From contig CANMFM010000002.1 in assembly GCA_947497175.1 (NCBI GenBank), forward strand, positions 293,620 through 357,619: a stretch of DNA of 64,000 bases, given 5' to 3'. The translations under genes and the position numbers were made by a program. The stretch is from an uncultured Aquimarina sp. Its GTDB lineage: Bacteria; Bacteroidota; Bacteroidia; Flavobacteriales; Flavobacteriaceae. How positions within the stretch are numbered: position 1 is the first letter of the stretch; each line of letters starts with the position of its first letter. The notes under the pieces were generated by a model, which searched no databases, was not told where the DNA came from, and saw only the letters and a list, made by a program, of their open reading frames with translations. Below, one piece after another: positions 24,506-64,000 of the stretch.

Positions 24506-25969
24506 ATGGGAAAGATAACTGGATTTTTAGAATTTGAAAGAGAAACCGAACAGTACCAACCTGTTAAAGATCGTATAAAAGATTATAAAGAGTTTACGGT
24601 AGAAATGCCTGAAAAAAAACTCAAAGATCAAGGTGCACGTTGCATGGATTGCGGTATTCCATTTTGCCATAGCGGATGTCCACTGGGCAATTTGATCCCT
24701 GATTTTAATGATGCTGTGTATCGCGGTAAATGGCAAAAAGCAGCAAATATTCTACATTCGACCAATAATTTCCCAGAGTTTACAGGAAGACTATGTCCGG
24801 CGCCCTGTGAAGAAGCTTGTGTGTTGGGAATTAATGAAGACCCCGTTACGATTGAAAATATAGAAAAAAACATCGTTGAACAAGCGTTTAAAAACGGTTG
24901 GATACAAGCAAACCCACCAAAAGAAAGAACAGGTAAAACAGTGGCTGTAATAGGATCTGGACCGGCTGGATTAGCAACTGCACAACAATTAAACCGTGCA
25001 GGCCATTTGGTAACCGTTTTTGAAAGAGATGAAAAAGTAGGCGGATTATTGCGCTATGGCATTCCAGATTTTAAAATGGAGAAACATGTAATCGATCGCC
25101 GTATTGCGGTTTTAGAAGAAGAAGGAATTATTTTTAAAACAAATACCTACATCGGTAAAGATATTAAAGCAGATGAGTTGAAGAACGAATTTGATGCTAT
25201 AGCATTATGCACAGGAGCAACAGTTCGTCGCAATTTGCCTGTTAAGGGAGCTGATCTTAAAGGTGTAGTGCAGGCCATGGATTTTTTACCACAAAACAAT
25301 AGAAGAGTTGATGGGATAAAAGATTTGGGAGAGGAAATATTAGCCACTGAAAAAAATGTTATTGTTATAGGTGGAGGAGATACAGGATCAGACTGTATAG
25401 GTACTTCTGTGCGTCACGGTGCAGCATCAGTAACTAATTTTGAGATTATGGGTAAAGGGACTATAGAACGCCCTGCAAATCAACCCTGGCCATTTTGGCC
25501 TATGCGATTACGTACCAGTTCTTCACATCAAGAAGGAGTAGAGCGTAATTGGAGTATTTCTACCAAAGAGTTTTTAGGAGATGAACATGGAAATTTAAGA
25601 GGGCTAATTACATCTGAAGTAGAATGGGTAAAAGAAAATGGTCGTTTCACTTTAAAAGAAATCCCAAATACAGAGAAAGAATGGAAATGTGAACTAGCCT
25701 TATTAGCTTTAGGGTTTACAGGGGCAGAACCTACAATCGCAGAACAATTAGGAATTGATATGGATGCCAGAACCAATATTAAAGCTACCGAAGATAATTA
25801 TGCAACCAATGTTAGAGGCGTTTTTGCAGCGGGTGATACTCGAAGAGGACAATCTTTAATCGTATGGGCAATTGCCGAAGGTCGACAAGCAGCATATCAT
25901 ATTGATACCTTTCTGATGGGATCATCTAATCTTCCGCTTAAAGGCGAAGGAGATTTACCAAGAATTTAA
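24506..25969 (+). CDS. gltD: Glutamate synthase small subunit
   Basis: A 487-residue NADPH-oxidising subunit that feeds electrons to GltB. N-terminal cysteines for two 4Fe-4S clusters are intact (CMDCGIPFCHSGCP and CPAPCEEACVLG). The FAD-binding GSGPAGLATAQQL (~150) and NADPH-binding VIGGGDTGSDCIG (~290) follow, with a second FAD segment (GVFAAGDTRRG) near the C-terminus. Length and order match bacterial GltD. It is the second and last gene of the gltBD operon; the downstream region holds a long stem-forming repeat element. Confidence 0.98.
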   Translation: MGKITGFLEFERETEQYQPVKDRIKDYKEFTVEMPEKKLKDQGARCMDCGIPFCHSGCPLGNLIPDFNDAVYRGKWQKAANILHSTNNFPEFTGRLCPAPCEEACVLGINEDPVTIENIEKNIVEQAFKNGWIQANPPKERTGKTVAVIGSGPAGLATAQQLNRAGHLVTVFERDEKVGGLLRYGIPDFKMEKHVIDRRIAVLEEEGIIFKTNTYIGKDIKADELKNEFDAIALCTGATVRRNLPVKGADLKGVVQAMDFLPQNNRRVDGIKDLGEEILATEKNVIVIGGGDTGSDCIGTSVRHGAASVTNFEIMGKGTIERPANQPWPFWPMRLRTSSSHQEGVERNWSISTKEFLGDEHGNLRGLITSEVEWVKENGRFTLKEIPNTEKEWKCELALLALGFTGAEPTIAEQLGIDMDARTNIKATEDNYATNVRGVFAAGDTRRGQSLIVWAIAEGRQAAYHIDTFLMGSSNLPLKGEGDLPRI

Positions 25970-26047: not shown

Positions 26048-26190
26048 AAAAAAGGCGGTCCGAAAAGAATAGAATAATGTCATCACGAAAAAATTTAATT
26101 TTGAAGTCATCTATTTATTAGTAACTCAAATGTAACAAATTCATTGGCTTTTCTAAAGAATGACAACTTCTCGGACAGCCTCTTTTATCA
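26048..26190. repeat. Stem-terminated repeat element A (between gltD and a convergent gene)
   Basis: The arms AGGCGGTCCGAAAAG (26053-26067) and CTTCTCGGACAGCCT (26067-81 of the 26,1xx block, i.e. 26167-26181) pair at 13 of 15 positions. The interior shares TTTAATTTTGAAG and CTAAAGAATGACAAC with element B at 50275-50415, although the arms are different in sequence. It may work as a bidirectional terminator. Confidence 0.65.
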
Positions 26191-26234: not shown

Positions 26235-26744
26235 TTAAGATTCGCCTCTGGCGGGATATTCATTTTTTAATATATAATCGATGGCATTTAATATGTCATC
26301 AAACTCAGGCCGTGCAAATGGCATGGTTTGTACCGAAGAAAAATACAATGTTTGGTCTGGTCGTATCAGAAAAATTCCAGGTTCTGAGAAATGCTCAGGT
26401 TCCTTGTCGTCCTTTGCAGCGGATATATATAATCCCCATTCTCTTGCCTTTTCTATGGTCATCTCATAACCAATAGGTAGTGAAGGTACGTTCCATTTGT
26501 CTCCTGTAGTTTTGGCCTTTTCTTTTGTGTCACAGCTTATTGCGGCTACATTTACTCCTCGGTCTACAAACTTATCCAATTTTGAAGAGAGTTCTTCTAA
26601 TTGTTTTTTACATATTGGACAATGTATTCCTCTGTAAAAAACAATCATCGTAAAATTTTCCGGGTTTTGATCCTCTATTTTCCAGTGCGTATCGTTGATC
26701 AGACTTACCTGAAGACTCGGCACTTTGTTTCTTGGTTTTAGCAT
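26235..26744 (-). CDS. Peroxiredoxin-like (AhpC/TSA, redoxin) protein
   Basis: A 169-residue thioredoxin-fold protein with the segment FYRGIHCPICKKQLEEL, a CxxC that replaces the usual single peroxidatic-Cys context (PxxxTxxC) of classical peroxiredoxins. It belongs to the 'peroxiredoxin-like' subgroup found in Bacteroidota and Cyanobacteria and probably reduces peroxides or acts as a thiol oxidoreductase in the cytoplasm. No signal peptide is visible. The start is at the ATG at 26744, after an AT-rich leader. It is monocistronic and convergent with gltBD. Confidence 0.85.
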   Translation of the reverse strand: MLKPRNKVPSLQVSLINDTHWKIEDQNPENFTMIVFYRGIHCPICKKQLEELSSKLDKFVDRGVNVAAISCDTKEKAKTTGDKWNVPSLPIGYEMTIEKAREWGLYISAAKDDKEPEHFSEPGIFLIRPDQTLYFSSVQTMPFARPEFDDILNAIDYILKNEYPARGES

Positions 26745-37608: not shown

Positions 37609-37988
37609 TAGGTTTCGCTTTTATTCTAAAGATACTTATTTTTAGGTGTTCTCTATATATTATGAGTATTGTATTTTGGTAATGACGAAACCTTCCGCAA
37701 CCAATGTAATGCTCATTGTTGGGTGTTAGAAACCTTCCACAACCAATGTAACGCCCATTGTTGGGTGTTAGAAACCTTCCGCAACCAATGTAATGCCCAT
37801 TGTAGGGTTTTAGAAACCTTCCGCAACCAATGTAATGCTCATTGTAGGGTTTTAGAAACCTTCCGCAACCAATGTAATGCCCATTGTAGGGTGTTAGAAA
37901 CCTTCCGCAACCAATGTAATGCTTATTGTAAGATATTAGATATCTTCTGCAACCATTGCACAGCTTATACTACGAGATAAAAAAGAAT
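37609..37988. other. Gap between the DinB-like gene and btuC, dominated by tandem repeats
   Basis: About 295 of 380 bp belong to the 42-bp repeat array. The remaining 78 bp next to the DinB-like gene should carry its promoter. There is no ATPase gene for the adjacent importer. Confidence 0.7.
37687..37980. repeat. 42-bp tandem repeat array, six good units plus one degenerate
   Basis: Units start at 37687, 37729, 37771, 37813, 37855, 37897 and 37939. Each begins GAAACCTTCCGCAACCAATG and differs by a few bases; the seventh is diverged but keeps the 42-bp length. There are no spacers, so it is not CRISPR. Each unit holds CCAATG and CATTG arms that could form a small hairpin. One plus-strand frame stays open across it because 42 is a multiple of three. 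Confidence 0.95.
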
Positions 37989-43828: not shown

Positions 43829-43934
43829 GATGATTTGTTTTTTTAGAAGAGTACAAAGTTAATCGAATACATTATTTATTAGTTATTGTTGCATTGAATT
43901 CGTCAAAATATAATACATTCGCGCAGAATTTTGG

Positions 43935-44222
43935 TTTTGATACACTACTCATAGTGTTGAAAATTAAAAGGGAATCAGGTGAAATGAACTACGAAGGCAG
44001 AAATACGATTTATATTTTTTTAATTGTAAATCTAAAGTCAAATCTCGTGGATTATTATTCCTGAGCTGTTCCCGCAACTGTATGCTAAGCCGAATCGGCA
44101 CTGATATTTAGCAATATCAGTACGTAGTAGGTGCTTGTTGTTACTTCTTATAAAACCACTGCCTGTATAGGTGGGAAGGTATACAACAAGACGCGAGCCA
44201 GGAGACCTGCCTAAATTCAATT
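43935..44222 (+). ncRNA. Cobalamin riboswitch in the btuB leader
   Basis: All main conserved blocks of the AdoCbl-type riboswitch are present in order on the plus strand: GGGAATCAGGTGAAA (~43970), CCCGCAACTGT (44071-44081), CCACTG (44156-44161), GGGAAGG (44173-44179) and the B12 box AGCCAGGAGACCTGCC (44196-44211). It ends ~90 nt before the btuB start and should shut off receptor synthesis when cobalamin is plentiful. Exact ends are approximate. Confidence 0.95.
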
Positions 44223-44307
44223 AATATCAAACTTTCGGGATAAAGGTTTGGGTATGGGTAAACTACATACTTTTTTCCGGTAATTGTAAAATTAAGTACG
44301 TAAAATA

Positions 44308-46254
44308 ATGAACAAAACGAAGTTTTTTGGGGCAGCATTTTTTATGCTGGGATCTTCATTGGTATTTGGACAAGAAGAAAACCAAGTCAACGAAAGCGTT
44401 AATGAATTAGAAGAAGTTGTGATTTCAGATTCTAAATTTAATTTAAAACGTGAACAAAGTGGTAAGGTAATTACCAAAATTACATCAGAAGAACTGGAAC
44501 AAAGCCAGGGGCAATCTGTAGCTACTGTGTTAACCAGAACTGCGGGGGTGTTTATCAACGGAAGTGGAAGTGCCGCAGGACAAAATCTTGGGGTATATGT
44601 TCGAGGTGGACGAAACCGACAGGTAGTCATAAGAGTAGATGGCGTTACAGTTAGTGATCCTTCAACTTCGGCAGGAGATTTTGATTTACGATTATTATCA
44701 GTTAATCAAATCGAAGAAATCGAAATCCTTAAAGGAGCTTCGAGTACGTTATATGGTTCTGGAGCTGCTACTGCTGTGATTAATATTACTACCAAATCAG
44801 CTAGTAAAGAAAAGATTGCAGCCACTTTTCAATCGAGTATCGGAACAAATCAATCTCAGGATGATCAGGACTATGACATTAATGAATTTGTGAATTTAGC
44901 TTCTGTTAACGGAACTTTAGGAAAAGTAAACTATTTGGCAAGTTTTGGAAACCAATTTACAGATGGGTTATCTGCAGCAGAAGCACCAGATGCCGAAAGT
45001 GATCCTTTTTCAAAATATAATGTATATGCTAAACTGGGCTATACATGGAATTCTAATTTCAGGTTTCATTTTTTTGGAAATTTGGACGAATATAAAAGTA
45101 GTTTTGATACTGGAGCGGGAGTAGATGGTGATAATGAGATTATCAGTCAACAACTAAGAGCCGGGTCATTTATAGAAGCAAAATACCCAAACGGAAGTTT
45201 TACAATCACCAATAGCTACGCTACTTTAGAAAGAGATCTTACGGGTTCTAGTTTTCCTGCAAAGTATAGAGGAGATGTATTTACCTTTGATGCATATAAT
45301 AAATACACATTTAATAACACTTTCTATACCGTTATCGGAGCTAACGGTTCATATAGCGATTTTAATTTATTGACCATCCCATTTGGAAGTACAGATTTAG
45401 AAGAAACAATTGATGACGAAAATGCAGAGTTTGATATTATTGATCCCTATGTTAATGTAGTGTATACTTCAGAGTTTGGTTTAAATATCAATGCCGGAGC
45501 TCGATTTAATATTCATAGCGTTTATGATAATCAATTAGTATATAATATTAACCCCTCGTATACCTATACCTTTGATACTAGTTATGTGAAAGGACTGGCG
45601 TCATATAGTACGGCGTATATTACTCCTTCTTTATTTCAATTATTTGACACGGCGTTTCTCACCGGAAATCCAAATCTAGAGCCAGAAGAAAGTACAACGA
45701 TAGAAGGAGGATTAGAGTTTTCTTATGAGAAGAATTCTATATTTAGTGTAGTGTATTTTAACAGGACTTCTGAAAATTTTATCACCTTTGATCCCGTTAC
45801 CTTTGTAAATATAAATTCACAGAACGATATCGAAGTTGACGGAATAGAAGTAGAAGCTTCTACGTTACTTTTGGATAGCAAATTGTCAATAAGAGGAAAC
45901 TATACCTATACCAATATTGATAAATTAGATGACAATATCAGAATACCGGAGCATATGGTCAATGCCAGTGTTGGATATCAATTTGGAGACAAAACGTTTG
46001 CTTCGTTAAGTTATCAATTTAATACAGAGCGTGCTGATAATGATTTTGCCAATGCTGATCCTGTTACTTTCGAGCCCACGCGCGTTACTTTAGATGATTA
46101 CGGCGTATTAGACTTTTATATTAGTCATAAGGTAATGGACAATTTTAGTATTTATGCTGCTATGAATAATATTACTAATGAAGATTATCAAGAGATTCTT
46201 GGATTTAGTACCAGAGGAAGAAATGCAAGAATTGGATTTAGTTTAGATTTCTAG
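44308..46254 (+). CDS. btuB: TonB-dependent cobalamin receptor (BtuB-like)
   Basis: A 648-residue outer-membrane receptor with a signal peptide (SLVFGQ, ~22), TonB-box-like LEEVVISD, plug domain (~45-165: VATVLTRTAGVFINGSG, LGVYVRGGRNRQVVIRVDG, LKGASSTLYGSGAATAVIN) and a 22-strand-type barrel ending IGFSLDF. The length is close to BtuB (~600), without the extra N-terminal domain common in SusC-type receptors. The cobalamin riboswitch directly upstream gives the substrate. A strong terminator follows at 46276. It likely delivers B12 and cobinamide to BtuF. Confidence 0.93.
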   Translation: MNKTKFFGAAFFMLGSSLVFGQEENQVNESVNELEEVVISDSKFNLKREQSGKVITKITSEELEQSQGQSVATVLTRTAGVFINGSGSAAGQNLGVYVRGGRNRQVVIRVDGVTVSDPSTSAGDFDLRLLSVNQIEEIEILKGASSTLYGSGAATAVINITTKSASKEKIAATFQSSIGTNQSQDDQDYDINEFVNLASVNGTLGKVNYLASFGNQFTDGLSAAEAPDAESDPFSKYNVYAKLGYTWNSNFRFHFFGNLDEYKSSFDTGAGVDGDNEIISQQLRAGSFIEAKYPNGSFTITNSYATLERDLTGSSFPAKYRGDVFTFDAYNKYTFNNTFYTVIGANGSYSDFNLLTIPFGSTDLEETIDDENAEFDIIDPYVNVVYTSEFGLNINAGARFNIHSVYDNQLVYNINPSYTYTFDTSYVKGLASYSTAYITPSLFQLFDTAFLTGNPNLEPEESTTIEGGLEFSYEKNSIFSVVYFNRTSENFITFDPVTFVNINSQNDIEVDGIEVEASTLLLDSKLSIRGNYTYTNIDKLDDNIRIPEHMVNASVGYQFGDKTFASLSYQFNTERADNDFANADPVTFEPTRVTLDDYGVLDFYISHKVMDNFSIYAAMNNITNEDYQEILGFSTRGRNARIGFSLDF

Positions 46255-49699: not shown

Positions 49700-50248
49700 A
49701 TGAAAAATGTATTCAAAATTTTAAGTCTTATCGCAGTCTTACTAGTCACAAGTTGTAATGATAGTGCCTCGCTTCAGCGCTATTTTGTAGACCATCAAGA
49801 CGATAATGATTTTATTGCTGTAGATGTACCCTCTAGCCTTTTGGATAAAGAGCGTATACATCTTAATGAAGAAGAATTAGAGGCGTTAGAGAGTATAAAG
49901 AAGGTAAATTTCTTAGCCTTGCCTCTTAGTGACAAAACAGAAGCTAAATTTAACAAAGAAAGTATAGCGATAGCCAAAATTCTTAACTCAGATAAATATG
50001 AAACACTGATGCGATTTGGTACCAATGGAACCAAAGCTGTATTAAAATATCAGGGAGAAGATGATGATATTGATGAAGTTATTGTTTTTGCTACAGATCA
50101 GGAAAAAGGGTTAGCATTAGTGCGTGTATTAGGAGATAATATGAACCCTAAAAAGATGGCAAAACTAATGCAGTCTGTAGAAAAAGGAAAGGTTGACCTT
50201 GATGCCTTTAAAAAACTAGGAGAAACTATAAACATTCATGTCGATTAG
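49700..50248 (+). CDS. DUF4252 lipoprotein
   Basis: A 182-residue lipoprotein (lipobox LLVTSC, Cys 19). The mature part carries the same DUF4252 layout as the preceding gene (EALESIKKVNFLAL, KYETLMRFGTNGTKAVLKYQG, EVIVFATDQEKGLALVRVLG, MNPKKMAKLMQSVEKG). Paired DUF4252 genes after a sigma factor are a recurring flavobacterial arrangement, as far as I know. Because a terminator and a repeat copy lie between them, this second gene probably has its own promoter. Function unknown; likely envelope-stress linked by inference. Confidence 0.85.
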   Translation: MKNVFKILSLIAVLLVTSCNDSASLQRYFVDHQDDNDFIAVDVPSSLLDKERIHLNEEELEALESIKKVNFLALPLSDKTEAKFNKESIAIAKILNSDKYETLMRFGTNGTKAVLKYQGEDDDIDEVIVFATDQEKGLALVRVLGDNMNPKKMAKLMQSVEKGKVDLDAFKKLGETINIHVD

Positions 50249-50274
50249 TTACGTTGGGACTATGAATAATTGAA

Positions 50275-50415
50275 AAAGAGATGGTATAAAAAGAATTAGA
50301 TAACCTCGTTACTAAAACTTTTAATTTTGAAGGCACTTGTTTGTAATACCTTAAATTTTAACAGATTCCTTCGCTTCTCTAAGAATGACAACTTTTTTAT
50401 ACCATCTCTTTTTTT
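50275..50415. repeat. Stem-terminated repeat element B (between DUF4252 and purB)
   Basis: AAAGAGATGGTATAAAAAG (50275-50293) pairs over 19 bp with the right arm ending TATACCATCTCTTT (50392-50411), with one extra T. The interior shares TTTAATTTTGAAG (50320-50332) and CTAAGAATGACAAC with element A. It also lies between convergent genes. Confidence 0.7.
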
Positions 50416-50429
50416 TATGTAAAAGATAG

Positions 50430-51773
50430 CTATATCCCGGTATAGTTAGAAGGAGTAATTTGTTTTAACTCAGATTTTATAGCATCAGAAACCTCTAAAG
50501 TCTCTATAAAACTGGCAATAGATCCTTGGTTGATCGTTTCATTGGTTCGAGTTAACCCTTTTAAAGCTTCATAAGGATTAGGGTATCCTTCTCTTCTCAG
50601 AATCGTCTGGATCGCCTCGGCAACTACCGCCCAGTTATTGTCTAGATCATTAGCAAATTTATCTTCATTTAACAAAAGCTTATTTAATCCCTTCAGCGTT
50701 GCCTGAAATGCTATTATAGTATGCCCAAAAGGGACCCCCACATTTCTAAGTACGGTACTGTCTGTAAGATCTCGTTGCAAACGACTCACGGGTAGTTTTG
50801 CCGAAAGATGTTCAAATATAGCATTGGCAATCCCTAGATTTCCTTCGCTGTTTTCAAAATCTATAGGATTCACTTTATGTGGCATGGCCGAAGAACCAAC
50901 TTCACCTTTCTTTATTTTTTGTTTAAAGTAGTCCATCGATACATACGTCCAGATATCTCGATCAAGATCCAAAATAATGGTATTGATTCTTTTAAGCCCA
51001 TCAAACAATGCCGCCATATGATCGTAATGTTCTATTTGAGTAGTAGGAAAAGAGTGATGTAATCCTAATTTTCCTTGTACAAAATCGGTACCAAACGCTT
51101 TCCAGTCAATATCTGGATAGGCTACTTTATGTGCATTGTAATTTCCTGTAGCTCCTCCAAATTTTGCTGCACTCGGGATATCATTTAGCAAATCAAATTG
51201 TGCTTCTAATCGGGTAACATAAACCTGGATTTCTTTACCTAATCGTGTGGGTGAAGCGGGTTGCCCATGGGTACGTGCCAGCATAGGTATTGCAGACCAC
51301 TCGCTAACCAAAGATTTCAGTTTATCTTTTAATTCTAAATATACAGGAATATATACAGCACCGATAGCTTCTTTAATACTTAACGGAATCGCAGTGTTAT
51401 TAATATCCTGAGATGTCAATCCAAAGTGGATGAATTCTTTGTACTCTTCTAGTCCAAGCTGATCAAATTTTTCTTTGATAAAATATTCTACGGCTTTAAC
51501 ATCATGATTAGTAACTTTTTCTATTTCCTTAATCGCCAAGGCATCATCAGTCGAAAAAGTGGTATAAATTTCTCTGAGTTTTGCGAATAAAGCAGTATCA
51601 ACTTTTTGTAATTGTGGCAGAGGCTGTTCACATAAAGCGATAAAATATTCAATTTCTACCAATACACGATATTTGATTAGAGCTTCTTCACTAAAAAATG
51701 CACTAAGAGCTTGGGTTTTTGATGCATAACGGCCATCAATAGGAGAGATGGCTTGCAAAGGAAATATAGACAT
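50430..51773 (-). CDS. purB: Adenylosuccinate lyase
   Basis: A 447-residue cytoplasmic enzyme of purine synthesis that cleaves SAICAR and adenylosuccinate to release fumarate. The fumarase/aspartase signature GSSAMPHKVNPIDFE is intact, as are SPIDGRYASKTQAL at the start and ARTHGQPASPTRLGKE with a catalytic His. Length matches the PurB type with ~450 residues. The upstream HEAT-like gene is 92 bp away on the same strand. The gene is convergent with the DUF4252 lipoprotein gene across repeat element B. Confidence 0.97.
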   Translation of the reverse strand: MSIFPLQAISPIDGRYASKTQALSAFFSEEALIKYRVLVEIEYFIALCEQPLPQLQKVDTALFAKLREIYTTFSTDDALAIKEIEKVTNHDVKAVEYFIKEKFDQLGLEEYKEFIHFGLTSQDINNTAIPLSIKEAIGAVYIPVYLELKDKLKSLVSEWSAIPMLARTHGQPASPTRLGKEIQVYVTRLEAQFDLLNDIPSAAKFGGATGNYNAHKVAYPDIDWKAFGTDFVQGKLGLHHSFPTTQIEHYDHMAALFDGLKRINTIILDLDRDIWTYVSMDYFKQKIKKGEVGSSAMPHKVNPIDFENSEGNLGIANAIFEHLSAKLPVSRLQRDLTDSTVLRNVGVPFGHTIIAFQATLKGLNKLLLNEDKFANDLDNNWAVVAEAIQTILRREGYPNPYEALKGLTRTNETINQGSIASFIETLEVSDAIKSELKQITPSNYTGI

Positions 51774-59540: not shown

Positions 59541-62500
59541 ATGAAAATAATTACTTATACTCGATTTTTTAAACTCTTCTTTTTATTTCTGGTATTGATT
59601 TCTAGTAAAATTGAAGCTCAGGTTTGTGGCGTAGTAACCACATTATATCAAACAGAAGGGCAGTCAGGTACCCCCAGAGTTTTAAGATACAATCCTTTTA
59701 TACAAGAATATGTACAGGTTGGGGTATTGCAGGGTGCAGCCGCGGGAACATCTTCTAACTCTGCGTACAATGCTTTTACAGAGTTAGTATATTCTAGTGA
59801 GGGAGGTCAGGTAATTAGATCATATGACCCGGCAAATAATTATCAGTTTGAAGGTGATCTTACTATTACCAACTTAACAGCTACCGCTGGGGGTTTTAAT
59901 AATACACTTTTTGCACAAAATGAATTCATTGGTCGAGTGGATGGCAATGATATTTTATTAATTGATATTGATGGATTGCCTCTGCCTGCTACAATAGATG
60001 TTACTAACACAAGAGTACAAGTAATAGCAAAGGTCAATAACAATCCCGGGGCAACGCCTTCCATACCAACCCCTGCCGACTATTCTTTTATCAATGGATT
60101 TATCTACGGTGTTAATGGCTCTACCTTAGTAGTAATAGATACAAGTAACGGAAATGCCGTTACAAGAAGTCTTAATTTCACAGGTACTGTAGGAGCAGCC
60201 CCTATTGGAGGTTTTGGTGCTGCCTGGCAGGATAGAGACGGTAATTTTTACACATTCAACAATGGCAACGGTAATATTTATCGGATTGCCAATATCGAGA
60301 CTATATTTTTGGCTACCAGTGCACCTTCAGATGTGATTACTGCCGAGCAAGTATTAGTAGCTAATCCGTCAGGACTTAATGATGGATATGCTTGTGAAAT
60401 TCAACCCAACCCACTAGACTGGGATGGAGATAATATTAATGATGATGTAGATATAGATGATGATAATGATGGGATTTTAGACACTGTAGAAAATGGTGGA
60501 AATGATCCTAATGCAGACGTTGATGGAGATGGTGTTCGTGCCTTAATTGATGACGATGATAATAATGGAAGCGTTGGTAATGATAATGGACGTGTCGAAA
60601 CTATTTTCGATTTTGATGGAGATGGCGTTCCAAATTCTTTCGATTTAGATTCTGATAATGATGGTATTATAGACAATATTGAAGGGCAGACTACTACGGG
60701 ATATGTTGCCCCTAGTAACAATGATGCTGACATGGATGGTTTAGATGATAATTATGAAGGAGGGGGAGATGCAGGTGTCACACCAGTTAACACAGATGGA
60801 TCTTTGGCAATATCAGATACAATTCCGGATTATTTAGACCCGGATAGTGATAACGATGGTATTTTGGATACCATTGAAGCCTATGACATCAATGGTGATA
60901 ATACTTCTGAAACGGTACCTACAGGGAATGATACAGATTTTGATGGGATAGATGATGCATTTGATTTGGTCATTGGTGGAGCTTCTGATCCAGCTGCTTC
61001 CGACAATAATGGTCAATTCCCGACTGATTTTCCAGATGATGATAGTCCGGGGAATGATAGAGATTGGAGGGATCCTTCAGATAGAGACTCTGATGGATCT
61101 ATCAACGAAGTTGATCTAGATGATGATAACGATGGGATTTTAGATGAATCCGAATATGACGCAGCTTTAGATCCTTTTGGAGATGAAGACGGTGATGGGG
61201 TTCCTAATTTTTCTGATGTTGATCAATTAGATTTGCCAGGTGACGGATCAAATACAGATTATACAGATAGTGATAACAATGGAGTTCCAGATGTTTATGA
61301 TCTTGATAATGATGGTATTCCAAATCACCTGGACTTAGATAGTGATAATGATGGTATTACAGATAATGTAGAAGCACAACCAACTATCGGTTATATTGCT
61401 CCTAGTGGTATAGGTCCAGGGATAACAGATGGAAATAATAATGGAGTAGACGATAATTATGAAACCGCTCAGGGCGGAACTGATTTAGGAGCAGGTGTCA
61501 ATTCTGATACAGATTTACTTCCGGATTTTTTAGATACGAATTCTGATGATGAAGGTGATAATGACACCATAGAAGCAGGTTTTACTCCGGCAGTTACTAC
61601 AAATGATAGTGATGGAGATGGTATTCTAGACGATTATGACGATATCAATGGTCCGATAGTTCAGGATGACCAAACTTTTGGAGCCATTGGACTACCAAAT
61701 AATCAAAACCCACCTACCACCGAGGTGGATTTTAGAGAAGATATTATAGGTATTGATACCGATGGAGATAATTCTTTTGATACGGTAGATTTAGATGATG
61801 ATAATGACGGTATTTTAGATACCGCTGAAAATACATTGGGCGTTGATCCATCAGCTGATGCCGATGGCGATGGTATTCCAAACTATCAGGATTTTGATGA
61901 CAATGGAAGTGCGACCGCTCCTGTATGTCTTGATGCGGATTTAAATGGTATCTGTGATACCTTAGATCCAGCTTTTGACAATGACCAGGATGGAGTACCA
62001 AATCACTATGATATTGATAGTGATAATGATGGTATTTACGATGTGATAGAAACCGGCGGTACGGATGCAAATAATGATGGTCGAGCCGATGATGACGATA
62101 ACAACACAGACAATACAGCTACAAATGGTATCCCTACCTCAGCAGGAGCGGGAGTTTCTACTCCAACCGAGACCACAGTAGGCACTCCAGATTATTTAAA
62201 TTTAGATAGTGACGGTGATGGTTGTAGTGATGCGAACGAGGCCTATGCCAGTGGTACTGCCGATGGTGGTGATACAGGAGTCTATGGTCCGGATCCTGCT
62301 ACGGTTAATCCTGCCACAGGAGTGGTGACTTCAGGTACCCCTGCACCAAGTTATGCTGCCCCGGCAGACGTTGATAGTAATGGTACTGATGATTACCAGC
62401 AAGTTGGCGGTCCTGATGGTGATGGTGATGGGATCTCAGATGCTTGTGATCCTGTATTTGACGATAATGATAATGATGGTGTAGGGGATGCTTTAGATTT

Positions 62501-64000
62501 AGATGATGATAATGACGGTATTTTAGATACCGCTGAAAACACACTGGGCGTTGATCCATCAGCTGATGCCGATGGCGATGGTATTCCAAACTATCAGGAT
62601 TTTGATGACAATGGAAGTGCAACCGCTCCAGTATGTCTTGATGCGGATTTAAATGGTATCTGTGATACCTTAGATCCAGCTTTTGATAATGATCAGGATG
62701 GTGTTCCTAATCATTTCGATTTAGATGCCGATAATGATGGGATTCCTGATAATATAGAAGTACAGACAACAGGAGGGTATATTGCACCAGTGGCGACAAC
62801 ACCTGCAGAATATATTGCAAATAATGGAATGAATAATGCTTATCTAACAACTAATGGAGGTGGGCCAGGATTTAATCCTGTAAATACTGATGGTACTGCT
62901 GATACAATACCAGATTATCTTGATACCGATAGTGATGAAGATTCCATTTTAGATATTCAGGAGAATGGAGATACTGATAATGCAATAGTAGTTTTTGCAG
63001 ATGCTGATGGAGATGGAATAGATGATCTTTTCGATACGGTAGATAATACGGTAACATGGGATGTGAACGACGCAGTAACCACTGGAGATGTTTCCAATTT
63101 ACAAACTATATACGGAGATTTTGATAGTGATGCTGATCCTATACCAGTGCCATTAGATAGTGATCTTTCTTTTAGAGATAATTGCCAAATAATTGCAGGA
63201 GTAATTGCAGCCGATGAGACGATTTGTGAAGGCGATGATCCAATTGCATTTACTGAAACTACCGCAACAAGTATAGATGCGGGTAGTATTACCTATCAAT
63301 GGCAAAGCAGTACAACAAGTGCAGTAGCTGGTTTTGCAGATTTAGTAGGTGAGACGAATACAACATATGATAGCCCGGTATTAACGCAAGATACATGGTT
63401 CAAACGTATAGACACAAATACTCTAAATGGAAACTCTTGCAGTGTTGAGACTAATGTAGTTGCCGTAACCGTAAATAACATTACTGCGGGTGTCATTGCA
63501 GCCGATGAGACGATTTGTGAGGGCGGCGATCCAGTTGCTTTTACAGAAATTACCGCTACAGTTGCCGATGGTACAGTAACCTATCAATGGCAGAGTAGCA
63601 CGACAGGAGCGACAGGGCCATTTACAGATATTACCGGAGCGACTAGTGCGACTTTTGATAGTGCGGTGTTAACTCAAGATACGTGGTTCCAACGAGTAGA
63701 TACTTCAACATTAAATACAGTTGCCTGTACGGCAACAACCAATGTCGTTGCTGTAACTGTAAATAACATCATTGCCGGAGTCATTGCAGCCGATGAGACG
63801 ATTTGTGAAGGTGGTGATCCAGTTGCTTTTACAGAAACTGCGGCTACAGTTGCCGATGGTACAGTAACCTATCAATGGCAGAGTAGTACCACTGGAGCTG
63901 CAGGGCCATTTGCAGATATTACCGGAGAAATATTGTCAACATATAATAGTCCAGTGTTAACCCAGGATACGTGGTTCCGACGAGTAGATACTTCAACATT
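59541..64000 (+). CDS. Giant secreted calcium-binding-repeat (TSP3) adhesin, 3'-truncated by the window
   Basis: Not in the track because no stop is reached; it is open from the ATG at 59541 to base 64000 (about 1486 residues). A signal peptide (SSKIEAQ, ~27) precedes a beta-propeller-like N-domain (~28-290). Next come ~25 DxDxDG-type thrombospondin-3/calcium-binding repeats (e.g. DLDDDNDGILDT; ~295-1215), then Ig-like repeats of 96-97 residues starting AGVIAADETICEGGDP at about residues 1220, 1317 and 1413. T9SS export is likely, but the C-terminus is outside. Two ~190-bp stretches (61791- and 62499-) are nearly identical, a recent internal duplication. It is probably a cell-surface adhesion or gliding protein. 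Confidence 0.93.
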   Translation, partial: MKIITYTRFFKLFFLFLVLISSKIEAQVCGVVTTLYQTEGQSGTPRVLRYNPFIQEYVQVGVLQGAAAGTSSNSAYNAFTELVYSSEGGQVIRSYDPANNYQFEGDLTITNLTATAGGFNNTLFAQNEFIGRVDGNDILLIDIDGLPLPATIDVTNTRVQVIAKVNNNPGATPSIPTPADYSFINGFIYGVNGSTLVVIDTSNGNAVTRSLNFTGTVGAAPIGGFGAAWQDRDGNFYTFNNGNGNIYRIANIETIFLATSAPSDVITAEQVLVANPSGLNDGYACEIQPNPLDWDGDNINDDVDIDDDNDGILDTVENGGNDPNADVDGDGVRALIDDDDNNGSVGNDNGRVETIFDFDGDGVPNSFDLDSDNDGIIDNIEGQTTTGYVAPSNNDADMDGLDDNYEGGGDAGVTPVNTDGSLAISDTIPDYLDPDSDNDGILDTIEAYDINGDNTSETVPTGNDTDFDGIDDAFDLVIGGASDPAASDNNGQFPTDFPDDDSPGNDRDWRDPSDRDSDGSINEVDLDDDNDGILDESEYDAALDPFGDEDGDGVPNFSDVDQLDLPGDGSNTDYTDSDNNGVPDVYDLDNDGIPNHLDLDSDNDGITDNVEAQPTIGYIAPSGIGPGITDGNNNGVDDNYETAQGGTDLGAGVNSDTDLLPDFLDTNSDDEGDNDTIEAGFTPAVTTNDSDGDGILDDYDDINGPIVQDDQTFGAIGLPNNQNPPTTEVDFREDIIGIDTDGDNSFDTVDLDDDNDGILDTAENTLGVDPSADADGDGIPNYQDFDDNGSATAPVCLDADLNGICDTLDPAFDNDQDGVPNHYDIDSDNDGIYDVIETGGTDANNDGRADDDDNNTDNTATNGIPTSAGAGVSTPTETTVGTPDYLNLDSDGDGCSDANEAYASGTADGGDTGVYGPDPATVNPATGVVTSGTPAPSYAAPADVDSNGTDDYQQVGGPDGDGDGISDACDPVFDDNDNDGVGDALDLDDDNDGILDTAENTLGVDPSADADGDGIPNYQDFDDNGSATAPVCLDADLNGICDTLDPAFDNDQDGVPNHFDLDADNDGIPDNIEVQTTGGYIAPVATTPAEYIANNGMNNAYLTTNGGGPGFNPVNTDGTADTIPDYLDTDSDEDSILDIQENGDTDNAIVVFADADGDGIDDLFDTVDNTVTWDVNDAVTTGDVSNLQTIYGDFDSDADPIPVPLDSDLSFRDNCQIIAGVIAADETICEGDDPIAFTETTATSIDAGSITYQWQSSTTSAVAGFADLVGETNTTYDSPVLTQDTWFKRIDTNTLNGNSCSVETNVVAVTVNNITAGVIAADETICEGGDPVAFTEITATVADGTVTYQWQSSTTGATGPFTDITGATSATFDSAVLTQDTWFQRVDTSTLNTVACTATTNVVAVTVNNIIAGVIAADETICEGGDPVAFTETAATVADGTVTYQWQSSTTGAAGPFADITGEILSTYNSPVLTQDTWFRRVDTST
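61791..62687. repeat. Internal duplication in the adhesin gene, 708-bp offset
   Basis: Bases 61791-61979 recur at 62499-62687 with about four differences seen by eye (e.g. AATACATTG versus AACACACTG). The offset is a multiple of three, so the frame is kept. Confidence 0.85.
63200..64000. repeat. Ig-like tandem repeats, 288-291 bp period
   Basis: GCCGATGAGACGATTTGTGA occurs at 63210, 63501 and 63789, spacing 291 and 288 bp. The units are similar at the DNA level over most of their length, and the third runs off the window. Confidence 0.92.

Follow-up and report, generated by a model that had tools for sequence, protein, structure and literature searches.

Here, we show that the dispersed repeats A and B, found in a 64,000-nucleotide stretch of an uncultured Aquimarina genome (the window), belong, as judged from their ends, to a family of MITEs (short non-autonomous derivatives) of the IS1182 insertion sequences. 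We consider it probable that A and B are old elements which replaced hairpins on insertion and whose end-stem then became a bidirectional terminator. This account combines known kinds of element with a known mode of insertion. We found no published description of the present MITE family in the open-access literature searched, and no relevant literature on the repeat sequences themselves.

The interior blocks shared by A and B, which an earlier note on the window had seen in what it called a dispersed element, lie at 26094-26106 / 50320-50332 and 26153-26167 / 50379-50392; an exact search for the two-block pattern misses B, which carries a one-base indel within it. When the interior of B alone was used as a blastn query, it recovered A (E=1.7e-12, 76% identity) and eight further strong copies in its own genome (G000, 4.59 Mb). 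The covariance-model scan that the earlier note had proposed, with a model built on ten copies and run on this and congeneric genomes, detected 14 full copies in the genome (E<=1e-7), in both orientations, and additional ones in the congeners G015, G017 and G021. Given this wider set, A and B are members of a real dispersed family and not a chance pair. Family copies are rare in other genera of the taxonomic family (3/100 sampled). Full copies are non-coding, about 130-140 bp long, with 16-nt inverted ends; the consensus in one orientation is AAAGAGGCTGTCYRAAAAG - interior - CTTTTYRGACAGCCTCTTT, and a terminal inverted repeat of 16 nt, GAGGCTGTCYRAAAAG, is found in most copies. Between the ends, the loosely palindromic interior spans about 95-100 nt and has the nested pairs GTCATT..AATGAC and GAAG-AATCTGTT..AACAGATT-CTTC. 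Ends of the MITE type also enclose unrelated interiors (L067, L069, L080, L082).

The arms of A and B had been described as pairing with themselves while differing entirely in sequence. The pairing is borne out: 17/20 positions pair between 26048-26067 and 26167-26186 in A, and B forms 20 consecutive pairs with one bulged T between 50273-50293 and 50392-50413. The difference was overstated, since the arms of A are the ordinary terminal repeat of the family with 2-3 positions unpaired, and B, which carries GAGATGGTATAAAAAG on both sides, agrees with the consensus at 11/16 positions in the same register. Compared with shuffled sequences, B folds far better (z -4.3) and A only marginally so (z -1.75).

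Table 1. Coordinates, in the window, of the two MITE copies, their parts and the genes that flank them.
Feature	Position	Strand	Remarks and support
Copy A of the MITE	26048..26186	+	Includes flanking A-run and T-run extending the stem; blastn with B interior 1.7e-12; covariance model match 143.6 bits
Copy A, left terminal inverted repeat AAGGCGGTCCGAAAAG	26052..26067	+	Consensus GAGGCTGTCYRAAAAG
Copy A, interior	26068..26166	+	About 99 nt; nested inner stems GTCATY..AATGAC and GAAG..CTTC, without covariation
Copy A, right terminal inverted repeat	26167..26182	-	GAGGCTGTCCGAGAAG on the minus strand, then TTTT
Copy B of the MITE	50273..50413	+	Covariance model match 131 bits
Copy B, left arm AAAAAGAGATGGTATAAAAAG	50273..50293	+	Rewritten terminal repeat
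Copy B, interior	50294..50391	+	
Copy B, right arm	50392..50413	-	Full complement of the left arm plus one extra T; then T-run
gltD, glutamate synthase small subunit	24506..25969	+	Ends 79 nt before A; TIGR01317 706 bits
AhpC/TSA-family (peroxiredoxin-like) gene	26235..26744	-	Convergent with gltD across A; PF00578 61 bits
DUF4252 / GFO_1091-family lipoprotein gene	49700..50248	+	Ends about 25 nt before B; NF058619 217 bits
purB, adenylosuccinate lyase	50430..51773	-	Convergent across B; ends about 17 nt from B; NF006764 657 bits

The origin of the ends is revealed by other genomes. An exact search for GAGGCTGTCTGAAAAG found it in 11/121 genomes of the taxonomic family (0 matches for the reversed control), and in several of the 11 it is followed by long repeated elements. 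In congeners and related genera it heads intact elements of 1709-1730 bp with an IS1182 transposase, for which the profile NF033551 gave 464 bits (L262) and 417 bits (L259) against a cut-off of 270; this transposase places the parent elements in the family, a test that applies to them and not to A or B. Since the MITE ends are identical to those of the intact elements, the repeats are best classed as MITEs of IS1182, and we infer that an IS1182 transposase mobilised them in the past. Four IS1182 elements of Aquimarina and relatives (L262, L297, L299, L301, of which the first three are intact copies of about 1.7 kb) share the terminal repeat GAGGCTGTCTGAAAAG and have inverted-repeat flanks as well, and two of the four lie between convergent genes. 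Unlike the MITE, they are 1.5-1.7 kb long, their interior is unrelated to that of the MITE, and a second end, GAGGTCGTCTAAAAAG, is present in three of the four complete copies. The flanks of the complete copies examined are inverted repeats, e.g. AAAGCAA[IS]TTGCTTT, with no direct repeats. In the genome of A and B the only trace of the IS1182 transposase is one remnant with two stop codons, and a search by paired ends found no autonomous element with the same ends there. Each end of these IS1182 elements contains a hairpin followed by a T-run (L262 1277-1310, GAGGCTGTCTGAAAAGGCAGTCTTTTTTTT; L297 481-530, GAGGTCGTCTAAAAAGTAATTTTTAGACGAC), which may possibly shield the transposase gene from read-through.

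As had been noted, A and B both lie between convergent genes (gltD and the AhpC/TSA-like gene; the DUF4252 lipoprotein gene and purB). This is the rule in their genome, where 10/14 copies are between convergent genes, 4 between codirectional and 0 between divergent ones; among background gaps of 100-600 nt, 20/222 are convergent (p=2e-7). Genes were called from open reading frames only in these counts. Short elements with the same ends and other interiors behave similarly (9/17 convergent, 0 divergent). The distance from element to stop codon is often just 3-45 nt, which leaves little space for another terminator. A short-loop terminator-like hairpin is present in 28/45 convergent gaps without an element and in 1/12 with one (p=9e-4). 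At the purB-DUF4252 gap, Aquimarina 637-3Z (L097) reads CATAAAAAAA-GCGTTGACATGATATCAACGC-TTTTTTT, where GCGTTGACATGATATCAACGC is a short hairpin, and the B locus, in the same reading direction, CATAAAAAAA-element-TTTTT; this comparison involves one relative with 91% purB identity, which is not a true empty-site strain, at a kind of site where terminators turn over fast. Orthologous sites were also compared at gltD: in most congeners the gene is followed, after 10-70 nt, by an ordinary hairpin with a T-run, and A has none. Thus the elements appear to have replaced ordinary terminator hairpins that relatives keep, and they probably now act as terminators themselves. Most copies in the genome are flanked by A-rich sequence on the left and T-rich sequence on the right, and B has a T-run on both strands, with A5 before its 20-pair stem and a T-run after it. 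The loop of about 100 nt, a length unusual for an intrinsic terminator and outside the 3-10 nt of short-loop terminators, is partly folded and shortened by the nested inner stems; because of it, a standard terminator scan finds none at B.

There is published precedent for such exchanges. IS1272, of the IS1182 family, is reported to insert into inverted-repeat hairpins and to replace them without target duplication (PMC5678879). TnSha1, which is moved by IS1272, is reported always to enter hairpins, which are partly deleted, and five of its targets are terminators confirmed by RNA-seq (PMC4923244). In a large survey, IS1182 was among the families over-represented between convergent genes (PMC9208149). 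This behaviour accounts for where the elements lie, for the loss of terminators and for the A- and T-runs that survive, and it gives a counterpart to one idea of the earlier note, that arms were exchanged on insertion: in IS1272 insertion the target hairpin is swapped for the element's own. We envisage that a non-coding element of about 135-140 bp with IS1182 ends was formerly moved by an IS1182 transposase that is now dead in this genome. It would target hairpins, above all intrinsic terminators, cutting within the stem or at its foot; to judge from location, terminator loss and the one orthologous comparison, the target hairpin would be deleted with no target duplication. The end-repeats of the element could then form a new stem between the surviving A-run and T-run of the terminator, and the element would take over as bidirectional terminator or 3'-end hairpin of the convergent genes. 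Thereafter the outer stem could change in sequence but would be held in the paired state, and the unconstrained interior would drift freely. We propose the step in which the element's own stem serves as terminator because covariation is restricted to the outer stem and no other terminator is seen at the sites.

Target choice alone could produce the convergent enrichment, and the elements could be plain IS1182 MITEs with no host function, whose sites reflect transposase preference and whose matching arms were inherited as variant ends or arose when template-switch repair copied one arm of a palindrome onto the other. Such a preference would suffice for both the convergent location and the missing terminators (PMC4923244). 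Left arms scored 301 against their own right arms and 222±11 against the arms of other copies, with 0/20,000 permutations reaching the self value; for the copies of the own genome alone the values were 200 and, for swapped arms, 149±9. When whole arms were swapped among the 19 copies of an alignment, 13.1±3.2 double changes were expected in the outer stem; 27 are observed (0/2,000). The two inner stems of this alignment, with 3 against 3.3±1.6 expected, show no covariation. The pairing kept despite changed sequence that the earlier note had perceived is thus statistically sound for the outer arms, and mainly in B, L084, L063, L048 and L076, copies with arms rewritten en bloc; once these five are left out, a weak signal remains (cells paired, p=0.007; double changes, p=0.09). 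The covariation of the arms is real, limited to the outer stem and uneven among copies. Its concentration in a few copies speaks for a MITE without host function, as does the decay of arms in some copies between convergent genes. The earlier note had counted copies with unpaired arms as evidence against its reading, and such copies exist: the arms of L044, L045, L047, L050, L062 and L090 pair poorly. L044, L045 and L047 lie between convergent genes nonetheless, so pairing of the stem can be dispensed with. These decayed arms and the loop of about 100 nt speak against a strict requirement for the stem. However, repair from arm to arm should also affect the inner stems, which do not covary, and as a paired arm the B sequence is private to its locus among 23 congeneric genomes; the variant occurs elsewhere in these genomes only as unpaired chance matches at control level. 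The B arm was thus not inherited from any visible source. We therefore regard a MITE without host function as unlikely, and infer that selection caused the covariation of the outer stem. L063 and L085, two copies in the congener G015, lack a few bases of the terminal repeat, identical ones in either arm, which looks as though correction had brought one arm into line with the other.

Covariation of an outer stem together with conserved interior blocks would also fit a structured RNA with a conserved fold, either a cis-regulator or a small RNA. With covariation in the outer arms only, and mainly in five copies, the elements do not behave as a conserved structured RNA. In addition, the copies occur in both orientations, at gene 3' ends and never between divergent genes, and their ends are those of an insertion sequence. 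We rejected the whole fold as a conserved RNA on account of its inner stems and regard such an RNA as extremely improbable; the selection on RNA or DNA structure suggested in the earlier note survives as putative selection on a terminator hairpin. An Rfam scan of the 64-kb window gave no match except a cobalamin riboswitch elsewhere.

The arms could instead belong to the host. If only the interior were mobile and had been put into the loop of existing terminators, the arms would be host stems and would differ from site to site for that reason. The arms of B with their A-run and T-run do resemble an ordinary terminator stem, and outside the inner AAAAG only 6/11 positions of the B arm match the consensus repeat. 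Yet a single arm consensus is common to most copies, and intact, transposase-bearing IS1182 elements end in it. The orthologous terminator at the B locus has a different stem, and AAAAAGAGATGGTAT..ATACCATCTCTTTTT is the arm pair that a mobile interior would lead us to expect there, with a short loop, in relatives. We also considered the arms as generic terminator stems of this genome and rejected this, because in 864 kb such arms were found only with elements. A mobile interior within host stems is accordingly very unlikely, and we retain the hairpin-replacing MITE with its own end-stem. Ends of the IS1182 type also occur back to back around a loop of a few bases (L066, L068, L070-L073, L292-L296). 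In congeners such loci are near-perfect bidirectional terminator hairpins, and 6/10 examined lie between convergent genes; they are either remnants of solo ends or terminators that gave rise to the ends.

The elements may, more tentatively, represent a class of terminator-replacing MITEs, a proposal to which we give rather less than even chances: they would spread through the structure-directed exchange of hairpins at terminators, their own end-stem would restore termination, and the outer stem would then evolve under compensatory selection. Such insertions would be nearly harmless, with the terminator itself as the mobile part, and this suggests, in a form open to test, how such a selfish element can persist: it brings a terminator where it deletes one. 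The proposal joins two known facts, the insertion of IS1182-family elements into terminator hairpins and the existence of MITEs with foldable ends. IS1272 and TnSha1 of Staphylococcus have IS1182-family ends of about 16 bp, like the present elements, and enter hairpins, mostly terminators, which are deleted without target duplication (PMC5678879, PMC4923244), a mode that we suppose for the present elements. They are full-length with a transposase, whereas the present elements are 135-140 bp long, gene-free and found in Flavobacteriaceae, and what stands in the place of the terminator is one long hairpin that runs from end to end. The BrickBuilt MITE of Porphyromonas gingivalis likewise has IS-derived ends, no transposase, intergenic sites and the capacity to form long stem-loops, but its ends are of the IS5 family, it makes target duplications, and according to its authors the native terminator lies undisturbed beside one copy (PMC4596501). 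CGTC-tagged REPs are also short palindromes at gene 3' ends (PMC3733652), and the inner module of the present elements has CGTCATT-like ends. The resemblance stops at that module: these REPs are 20-40 bp long, with a stem of 8-9 bp, a loop of 4-5 nt and a CGTC tag, usually occur as head-to-head dimers, and neither a transposase nor IS1182-type ends are known for them. The family also serves as a warning that transposon ends can mimic RNA covariation among dispersed repeats where there is no regulatory RNA. Finally, its loci, with and without an element and with paired and unpaired arms, form a natural set for the study of termination by long-loop hairpins in Bacteroidota.

Other features of the window lie apart from the MITEs. 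The cobalamin riboswitch (RF00174, 71.7 bits) occupies 43915-44228 (+), and an open reading frame of 648 aa (44308-46254) follows directly downstream. At 37645-37980, a tandem 42-nt unit is present in six register-shifted copies, 71-100% identical, inside or beside short open reading frames. At the end of the window, 60400-64000, numerous coding repeats of 48-72 nt that are rich in aspartate (DxDxDG-like) precede repeats of about 290 nt, a pattern resembling that of a repetitive surface protein of very large size.
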